Below, in pieces: positions 9,010 through 10,279 of a stretch of DNA of 64,000 nucleotides. Every line of letters starts with the position of its first letter. The first letter of the stretch is position 1. The position numbers were made by a program, and so were the translations under genes. The stretch comes from Pseudacidobacterium ailaaui. GTDB taxonomy: Bacteria; Acidobacteriota; Terriglobia; Terriglobales; Acidobacteriaceae. Location of the stretch: NCBI RefSeq assembly GCF_000688455.1, contig NZ_JIAL01000001.1:2325001-2389000 (forward strand), given 5' to 3'. The notes beneath the pieces were generated by a model. The model was not told where the DNA came from, did no database searches, and saw only the letters and a program-made list of their open reading frames with translations.

Positions 9010-9525
9010 TTGACAGGGCAGCATTCAGGTGCGCGGTTGAACCGCGGTATTGTTCTCATCGGTTTTTTCAAGCTGCTCAAAGGCGTTCTGTTTGTGCTGC
9101 TGGGCATTGGCGCTTTCCGGCTGATTCATCGCGATGTTCTGGACGTGGTGACCGGATGGCTCATCAATATGCACTTTGATCCAGAGAGCCGGCTGGTGAA
9201 CCTGGTCCTGGACAAGGCCGCGCTGATCGATGCGCACCGGATGAAGCAGATCAGCATTGCCATCTTCTGCTACGCGGGGCTGGATTTTATCGAGGGTACG
9301 GGACTGGTCCTGGAAAAGAGCTGGGCCGAGTATCTGACGCTGGTTTTGACCGCTTCTTTTCTTCCCTGGGAATTCTTTGAGATTCTGCGGCACCCCACAT
9401 GGCTCAAAGCCGTTCTGACACTGGTCAACCTGCTGGTCGTGGTCTATCTCCTCTTTTACGTGCAGTGGAGCCTGCGCCAGAAGAGGAAGAAGGCGACGCA
9501 GGAGGCGCAAGAGGGAGAAGGTTAG
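9010..9525 (+). CDS. DUF2127-like integral membrane protein
   Basis: A 171-residue protein with about four membrane helices: GIVLIGFFKLLKGVLFVLLGIGAF, ISIAIFCYAGLDFIEGTGLVL, YLTLVLTASFLPWEFFEIL and AVLTLVNLLVVVYLLFYV. A basic/acidic tail follows. The pattern (GLDFIEGTGLVLEKSWAEYLT, FFEILRHPTWLKAVL) matches the DUF2127 family, whose role is unknown. The start is TTG at 9010, chosen because AGGGAG lies 6 bases upstream and no ATG fits. It stands alone between dxs and the mraZ control region. Confidence 0.7.
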   Translation: MTGQHSGARLNRGIVLIGFFKLLKGVLFVLLGIGAFRLIHRDVLDVVTGWLINMHFDPESRLVNLVLDKAALIDAHRMKQISIAIFCYAGLDFIEGTGLVLEKSWAEYLTLVLTASFLPWEFFEILRHPTWLKAVLTLVNLLVVVYLLFYVQWSLRQKRKKATQEAQEGEG

Positions 9526-9545
9526 GCGAAACTGTCTTATCGTGA

Positions 9546-9560
9546 GTCAGAAAATCTGAC
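9546..9560. repeat. Perfect inverted repeat GTCAGA-AAA-TCTGAC
   Basis: Two 6-base arms around AAA, 21 bases after the stop of the DUF2127-like gene. There is no T run, so an operator is likelier than a terminator. Confidence 0.6.
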
Positions 9561-9594
9561 AAGTAGGGAAAAGGGCGGTCGAACCAACTAAGTA

Positions 9595-9612
9595 AACACA
9601 ATATATTGTGTT
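9595..9612. promoter_or_regulatory. 18-bp perfect palindrome, operator candidate
   Basis: AACACAATATATTGTGTT reads the same on both strands. Its AT-rich centre could also serve as a -10 element. It is the longest gapless palindrome I found in the window, and it looks like the site of a dimeric repressor. Confidence 0.6.
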
Positions 9613-9746
9613 CCGACATCTCAAACACCCAGAGTAATTGGATTTTGCTCTCTCCGTGTCGTTCTTCGCGGGAGCAGGCTGGAAAAATCTGAATCTCCAC
9701 AACAAAACAGGCTTTGAGTGCAGCATCTACTGGGTTACGATGTGAG

Positions 9747-9770
9747 TGGACCAAAGTGGTAAAAAATGGT
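9747..9770 (+). promoter_or_regulatory. MraZ-box-like triple repeat
   Basis: TGGAC, TGGTA and TGGTC begin at 9747, 9757 and 9767, exactly 10 bases apart, so three TGGWN units are separated by 5-base spacers. E. coli MraZ binds TGGGN repeats with the same 5-base spacers upstream of mraZ. The third base of each core is changed here (G to A or T). This probably mediates autoregulation of the operon. Confidence 0.6.
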
Positions 9771-9790
9771 CTGACGGGCACGAAATTTGG

Positions 9791-9805
9791 TCAGAATGAT
9801 TCTGA
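9791..9805. repeat. Perfect inverted repeat TCAGAAT-G-ATTCTGA
   Basis: Two 7-base arms around one G, 33 bases before the mraZ start. It overlaps the likely -10 element, as a repressor operator would. Confidence 0.55.
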
Positions 9806-9838
9806 TTTTGATGCCTGCCGCCGATGAAGGCTTTAAGC

Positions 9839-10279
9839 ATGTTTCGGGGTAACCATCCAGCCCGGGTTGATGAAAAAGGGAGGCTCAAGCTTCCGGCCGA
9901 ATTCAAGCGCCGGATTGAAGAGGGCTACGGGAGCCAGTTTTACATCACCAGCAAGGACGGGAAGGTGGCCGAGATCTACCCCCTTCAGGAATGGGAAAAG
10001 ATCGAGCAGAAGATCGCGGCGATTCCCAGCTTTAATCCTGCGAAGAAAAAGCTGCTGGACCGTGTGAACTATTACGGCCAGATGGCAGAGATGGACCAGC
10101 AGGGACGCGTATTGATTCCCCAGATTCTGCGTCAGACGGCGAAGGTGGAAGGCGACGTGGTGGTGTTCGGAATGCAGACCTATCTTGAGGTGACCAACCG
10201 CGAGGCATTCGAGCAGAAACTGGCGAGCGAGCCTTTGACCGAAGAGGACGCGCAGACGTTGGCAAGTTTTGGTTTGTAA
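9839..10279 (+). CDS. mraZ: Transcriptional regulator MraZ
   Basis: A 146-residue DNA-binding protein with two AbrB-like halves: MFRGNHPARVDEKGRLKLPAEF, and later NYYGQMAEMDQQGRVLIPQILR. MraZ forms a ring and represses its own dcw operon. The start at 9839 is preferred over ATG 9824 because AAGG lies 8 bases upstream and MFRG is the family's usual N-terminus. It heads the operon mraZ-rsmH-ftsL-ftsI-murE-murF; rsmH starts 17 bases after the stop. A degenerate MraZ box lies upstream. Confidence 0.93.
   Translation: MFRGNHPARVDEKGRLKLPAEFKRRIEEGYGSQFYITSKDGKVAEIYPLQEWEKIEQKIAAIPSFNPAKKKLLDRVNYYGQMAEMDQQGRVLIPQILRQTAKVEGDVVVFGMQTYLEVTNREAFEQKLASEPLTEEDAQTLASFGL

Follow-up and report, generated by a model that had tools for sequence, protein, structure and literature searches.

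The control region of the dcw (division and cell wall) cluster analysed here very probably holds an ordinary MraZ operator together with an operator for NrdR, with NrdR predicted to control ribonucleotide reductase (RNR), smc (chromosome segregation) and dcw alike. NrdR is a dATP/ATP-sensing repressor of ribonucleotide reductase. The case is built from sequence, namely the identity of the box, the spacing of the box pair in relatives, its conservation, and a target set shared by RNR, smc and dcw. Since the gene downstream is mraZ and the site does not precede an RNR operon, it was classed as an operator of the NrdR type with a new target. How DNA synthesis is coupled to division in bacteria is a long-standing question. 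If the reading is true, segregation and division would be informed directly by dATP sensing through a conserved NrdR operator at dcw and another at smc, and in the Acidobacteriaceae, a family of soil bacteria, building-block supply may be tied to division via the predicted NrdR site.

The region studied lies upstream of mraZ in the window, that is, the whole stretch of 64 kb taken from a complete 3.69-Mb genome, whose plus strand carries dxs, DUF2127, mraZ, mraW and a gene for a penicillin-binding protein with a PASTA domain in this order. The start of mraZ was picked via homology and the preceding AAGG. Together with 80 loci of relatives (the best 80 of 92 matching loci, mostly with Acidobacteriaceae or Acidobacteria titles, two of them from one isolate), the window gave 81 mraZ upstreams; loci L001-L030 partly overlap L107-L186. 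The sole congeneric genome compared (G001) has 71% overall identity to the window in the aligned stretch. The TGG units and the three dyads named in the original prediction all stand where it had placed them, and the features of the region are as follows.

9010-9525, plus strand: gene of a DUF2127 membrane protein (PF09900, E 6e-41), co-directional and upstream of mraZ
9546-9560, no strand assigned: dyad GTCAGAAAATCTGAC, 6-bp arms and 3-base centre, probably not an operator
9581-9585, plus strand: GAACC, conserved element at -15 from box 1
9595-9612, no strand assigned: gapless perfect 18-bp palindrome AACACAATATATTGTGTT, predicted NrdR box 1, with its 16-bp core ACACAATATATTGTGT at 9596-9611
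9627-9642, no strand assigned: candidate NrdR box 2, degenerate, ACCCAGAGTAATTGGA, centre 31 bp past that of box 1
9683-9701, plus strand: AAAAATCTGAATCTCCACA, block kept with G001 amid diverged sequence
9713-9718, plus strand: TTTGAG, likely -35 of the mraZ promoter, read by eye, 17 bp before 9736
9736-9741, plus strand: TACGAT, likely -10 of the mraZ promoter, read by eye, directly before the MraZ units and also in G001
9743-9752, plus strand: MraZ operator unit 1, TGAGTGGACC
9753-9762, plus strand: MraZ operator unit 2, AAAGTGGTAA
9763-9772, plus strand: MraZ operator unit 3, AAAATGGTCT
9791-9805, no strand assigned: dyad TCAGAATGATTCTGA, 7-bp arms and 1-base centre, in the mraZ leader, probably not an operator
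9839-10279, plus strand: mraZ, 146 aa, MFRGN... start (PF02381, E 2e-24)

The MraZ units, the promoter and the lesser dyads

The MraZ box of E. coli consists of TGGGN units with 5-base spacers. In the window, TGG starts at 9747, 9757 and 9767 and is read as TGGA, TGGT and TGGT, and AAAGTGG-like units at 10-bp steps precede mraZ here as in the 80 relatives. The exact TGG triple at this step was found in 58/81 upstreams, and at least one unit was imperfect in 23/81; 100 rounds of shuffling gave 0.13 exact triples on average and never more than 2. An anchored three-unit score of at least 25 was reached by all 81 upstreams and by 0.8% of shuffled sequences. The proposal of an MraZ with altered specificity proved unnecessary, as the base after TGG is A or T in 192/209 intact units of the family-wide anchored count (unit 1: A 50, T 22, G 7, C 2; unit 2: T 40, A 26, C 1; unit 3: A 40, T 14, C 4, G 3). 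By this family rule, the three units of the window are typical.

Like the MraZ operators of E. coli and the Mollicutes, this one has three direct repeats at 10-bp steps at the likely mraZ transcription start, with mraZ itself immediately downstream; unlike that of E. coli, it has A or T family-wide in place of the third G of TGGGN. The Mollicutes repeat is given as AAAGTG[T/G] in the available part of PMC8475190, which shows that not every MraZ box has the TGGGN of E. coli, and the AAAGTGG unit found here has the core of that repeat. The units of the window depart from TGGGN and fit the AAAGTG[T/G] variant. Structures of MraZ are present in the PDB. Because a strict sigma-70 consensus scan of 9500-9900 returned no promoter, the -35 and -10 elements are given as read by eye. 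The units directly follow the likely -10, so MraZ would cover the transcription start. Judged by their sequence, these repeats form an ordinary MraZ operator next to the promoter.

The claim of three perfect palindromes in this region holds fully for 9595-9612, which is gapless and perfect, whereas the other two dyads are perfect in their arms only. Dyads with arms of at least 6 bp and loops of 0-4 number 109 in the 64 kb (0.44 per 260 bp), and those with arms of at least 7 bp number 30 (0.12 per 260 bp), nested listings being counted repeatedly in both figures. At this near-ordinary density, the dyads at 9546-9560 and 9791-9805 are weak evidence by themselves. Both are broken in the alignment with the congener, and they were rejected as operators on these two grounds. 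Conservation in close relatives, the check on which the original prediction had staked its refutation, came out in favour of the 18-mer site and the TGG repeats and against the two lesser dyads.

A divergent gene as the owner of the operator found no support either: a DUF2127 homologue lies upstream in the matching orientation in 58/80 loci, with a negative gap to box 1 in 3 of these 58, and the other 22 loci are without a DUF2127 match.

The palindrome at 9595-9612 and its partner box

The palindrome at 9595-9612 shares gapless arms of at least 9 bp with only one other dyad in the 64-kb window. Its core at 9596-9611 has no mismatch to acaCwAtATaTwGtgt, the NrdR-box consensus reportedly set out by Rodionov and Gelfand in 2005, and the C and G of positions 4 and 13 are both present. 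In relatives these two bases, nine apart, are among the best-kept positions of the box (98% each), a figure that leans upward as the sites were initially chosen by their likeness to the consensus. According to the available text of PMC9110341, highly conserved G:C pairs, nine apart within a box and 31 between boxes, are read by D15 and R17 of NrdR, and their inversion costs about 50-fold in NrdR binding. From the spacing, we infer that the C..G pair of box 1 is the G:C pair read by NrdR. The gene nrdR was present in 25/25 genomes (TIGR00244, 192.5 bits in the genome of the window), and the organism's own NrdR, which matches NrdR chains of the PDB, keeps D15, R17 and the RRRR stretch, the DNA-contact residues as read in translation.

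In the congener, box 1 departs from the consensus at 3 positions, a half-conserved site amid diverged sequence; parts of 9595-9642 are kept in this alignment, and the perfection of the 18-mer is not itself conserved. Once the relatives are compared, the 18-mer is well beyond chance. In 78/81 upstreams, the first MraZ TGG is preceded at a distance of 124-160 bp by a degenerate copy of the NrdR-like element GTAAACACnAnATnTTGTGGT. The literature consensus was found within 4 mismatches in 55/81 upstreams; 200 composition-matched scrambled palindromes reached this in 3.9 upstreams on average and in 29 at most. At least 90/398 family genomes match the palindrome with at most one mismatch, a search in which the reversed-pattern control also matches.

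NrdR requires two boxes, usually 15-16 bp apart, which places three turns between their centres, and single boxes are reported as bound poorly or not bound (PMC12051234, in the part available); a spacing of 31-32 bp is given in the accessible part of PMC2892513. When a good second box was sought in the window at 30-33 and 40-43 bp on both sides of box 1, the best partner had 8 mismatches. The candidate box 2 has the expected C (9630) and a T at 9639 where G is expected; it is kept in the congener as ACCCGGAGTAATTGGA, where again the C alone of the pair is retained. In the family, a C..G pair stands at exactly +31 in 52/79 loci, compared with a mean of 6.5% over offsets and with no selection for box 2 (two of the 81 loci, L127 and L128, scored below 9 and were left out), and 27/79 loci are without the full pair at this position. 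In a non-redundant set, the pair was found in 44/65 loci, and 20,000 draws of random offsets never gave above 14. The next highest offset was -27 (35/79), which falls on a separate element, GAAYC, whose G is common to both.

Reciprocal searches connected the mraZ site with those of RNR and smc. A matrix made from the relatives' mraZ sites, with the window and G001 left out, scored 27.7 at 9596 and 5.6 at the next other place in the 64 kb. A second matrix, built from 30 sites of RNR (13) and smc (17) upstreams that were chosen by the literature consensus, with none from mraZ, also had 9596 as its top place in the window (28.1 against 10.3 for the next). It marked box 1 in 66/81 mraZ upstreams and another place in 1, and 15/81 were without a top match above background at box 1.

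The mraZ site is at most a family-level trait, because it was absent from the order's other family (0/13 loci, scores at most 1.0, three of the loci from one genus) and weak in three loci of the family itself (L001, 4.7; L010, 2.2; L021, 8.4; window background 7.4). It was also absent in one more distant genome.

Other elements accompany box 1. GAAYC was found at the fixed distance of -15 in 59/78 mraZ upstreams (the 78 of 81 loci with a score above 12), against 4/82 strand readings of RNR and smc boxes. It is possibly the -35 of a distal mraZ promoter, perhaps one for an ECF sigma factor, but no fitting -10 was found for it: conserved candidates lie at an unsuitable distance or would be hidden in box 1. 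The DnaA-box-like consensus is TTWTNCACA. This motif was observed at exactly +46 from box 1 in 21/81 mraZ upstreams, and none was seen in the mraZ region of the window. The sequence TTATCCACA, on either strand, occurs in 9/17 family smc upstreams of about 460 bp (L216, L217 and L220-L226), including L220, the window's own; for 6 of the 15 smc boxes listed, it lies on the plus strand and overlaps or adjoins the NrdR box. By these motifs, NrdR and DnaA may act together.

NrdR-type sites at reductase and smc genes

The genome of the window carries NrdR-type sites at smc (L220), RNR (L241, L242) and mraZ. Two of its three RNR loci have box pairs (L070/L241, 30 bp apart; L048/L242, 31 bp apart), and the third (L243/L244) has no site above 4.1. 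In the stretch cut, 10/18 RNR loci of the family have a box with a score of at least 9, and in 8 of these 10 the -35 follows after 7 bp. The partner box is found 30-31 bp downstream in 9/10, where it covers the core promoter, and upstream in 2/10. The remaining 8/18 are below 9 in the stretch cut, and three of them (L058, L059 and L063) have sites of 12.8-15.0 elsewhere in the locus.

At smc, 15/17 family loci have a box of at least 9, in all 15 cases 7-9 bp before a TTGAC or TTGAT -35, and 2/17 are below 9. The layout is mirrored here, with the partner box 30 bp upstream in 14/15 and a C..G pair 30-31 bp downstream in 5/15. The exact pattern ACACNATATATNGTGT was present in 4/41 genomes, the window's own included; it precedes smc in two others (G015 and G022), and in G024 the contig ends before the gene. 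At mraZ the pair is wholly upstream, and the two boxes of the window precede the inferred transcription start by about 144 and 113 bp.

Profile searches were run over whole genomes. Profile R1 was made from 51 mraZ boxes, out of 58 distinct ones scoring at least 20, with the window excluded and G001 (L107) and other relatives included; it was run over 16 genomes, with at most 150 first-look candidates scored per genome. In the genome of the window, where 150 of 274 such candidates were scored, it returned two places only at E <= 10:

2334592-2334612, both strands: the palindrome, 18.5 bits, E 0.008
698789-698805: upstream of an RNR gene (domain start 699603), 13 bits, E 0.5

This search did not return the genome's own smc site, which has a matrix score of 18.2. 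In G009, G003 and G001, both the RNR and the mraZ site were returned, the mraZ site of G001 being itself in R1. Profile R2 was made from 40 boxes, among them RNR and smc sites of the searched genomes, and was run over 25 genomes, again with no more than 150 first-look candidates scored in each. Since R1 and R2 contain sites of the genomes searched, matches at input sites are partly by construction; the mraZ box of the window is in neither profile, and the palindrome was the best match in the whole-genome profile searches. No match at E <= 10 was obtained in 5/16 and 9/25 genomes, and by our tally 5 of the 22 distinct places of the second search were not at RNR, smc or mraZ.

Comparison with known operators and alternative readings

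The site resembles the NrdR operators of S. coelicolor nrdRJ and E. coli nrdHIEF in its 16-bp palindrome, its C..G nine apart, the presence of nrdR and, in relatives, a box pair about three helical turns apart. It differs from both in that the target is dcw, the pair stands well upstream of the likely promoter and the second box is weak. A target other than RNR has a parallel in the NrdR box of P. aeruginosa topA, a gene reported as activated by NrdR in the available part of PMC4409342. That gene has a single box, whereas the pair described here is kept across much of the family and the targets are dcw and smc; the topA mechanism is doubted in PMC12051234 on account of the single box. NrdR is described as RNR-specific in PMC9110341, and the accessible text of PMC5343134 treats it as a regulator of deoxyribonucleotide synthesis and is without mraZ, dcw, ftsZ or smc. 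In E. coli, PolA was downregulated on NrdR overexpression and FtsZ appears in an interaction network (PMC4898720, in the part available), neither of which amounts to an operator. The original prediction described its further regulator as new to dcw clusters, and this agrees with the open-licence literature searched, where we found no such regulator and where, judged by titles and the openings of abstracts, NrdR is reported at neither dcw nor smc.

When dATP is plentiful, an NrdR tetramer would bind both boxes and kink the DNA sharply, so that the division operon would be told of the state of the dNTP pool via NrdR and dcw transcription would change. At RNR, the second box overlaps the core promoter, a layout that would fit repression. 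The partner box does not cover the core promoter at smc and mraZ, an arrangement that would suit activation, as reported for topA, or the repression of a distal promoter; the mraZ operator is too far upstream for a direct block of the MraZ-proximal promoter. A more tentative and rather doubtful extension has NrdR as a two-way regulator of the cell cycle, which represses RNR and activates smc and dcw as dATP accumulates, partly with DnaA. Under it, dATP would accumulate as DNA synthesis ends, RNR would be turned off via the promoter-overlapping boxes, and smc and dcw would be activated from boxes upstream of their promoters. If this were true, the dNTP pool would act directly, at the level of transcription, as the signal for chromosome segregation and division.

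The palindrome could instead belong to another dimeric cell-cycle regulator with an NrdR-like box, found at RNR and smc promoters as well. The conserved GAAYC that is mostly missing at RNR and smc sites would suit such a protein, and TTWTNCACA at +46 (21 loci) and TTATCCACA in 9/17 smc upstreams suggest that other factors may act nearby. However, the element agrees with published NrdR operators in its consensus, its C..G pair and its 30-31 bp pairing, and it sits at RNR promoters, the established target of NrdR, which makes another regulator improbable. It is likewise unlikely that the palindrome is a lone NrdR-like box, chance or relic, without function here even though relatives have a working pair. 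Such a reading draws on the degenerate box 2 of the window, the 3 mismatches of box 1 in the congener and the poor binding of single boxes stated in the available text of PMC12051234. Yet box 1 is perfect here and half-conserved in the congener amid sequence of 71% overall identity, the palindrome is the best match in whole-genome searches, and the box 2 sequence is itself conserved with the congener.

The model of the original prediction, in which an MraZ of altered specificity acts with dimeric regulators at 9546-9560 and 9791-9805, has become highly improbable. The sequences exist at the places given, but TGGW is the family norm, and both dyads are lost in the congener and occur at near-chance density. 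From its expectation of one or two further dimeric regulators we retain one, most likely NrdR, at the 18-mer, and none at the dyads beginning at 9546 and 9791.

Two further sites were observed in relatives. At about 1501-1547 of locus L261 (G001:C29:10569), two NrdR-type boxes 30 bp apart precede a frame for a DncV-like nucleotidyltransferase (PF21654), and from their sequence they are a possible dNTP-sensing operator at what may be an anti-phage signalling gene. At L263 (G014:C103:26650), an NrdR-like site lies inside or near a thymidylate kinase gene (PF02223).
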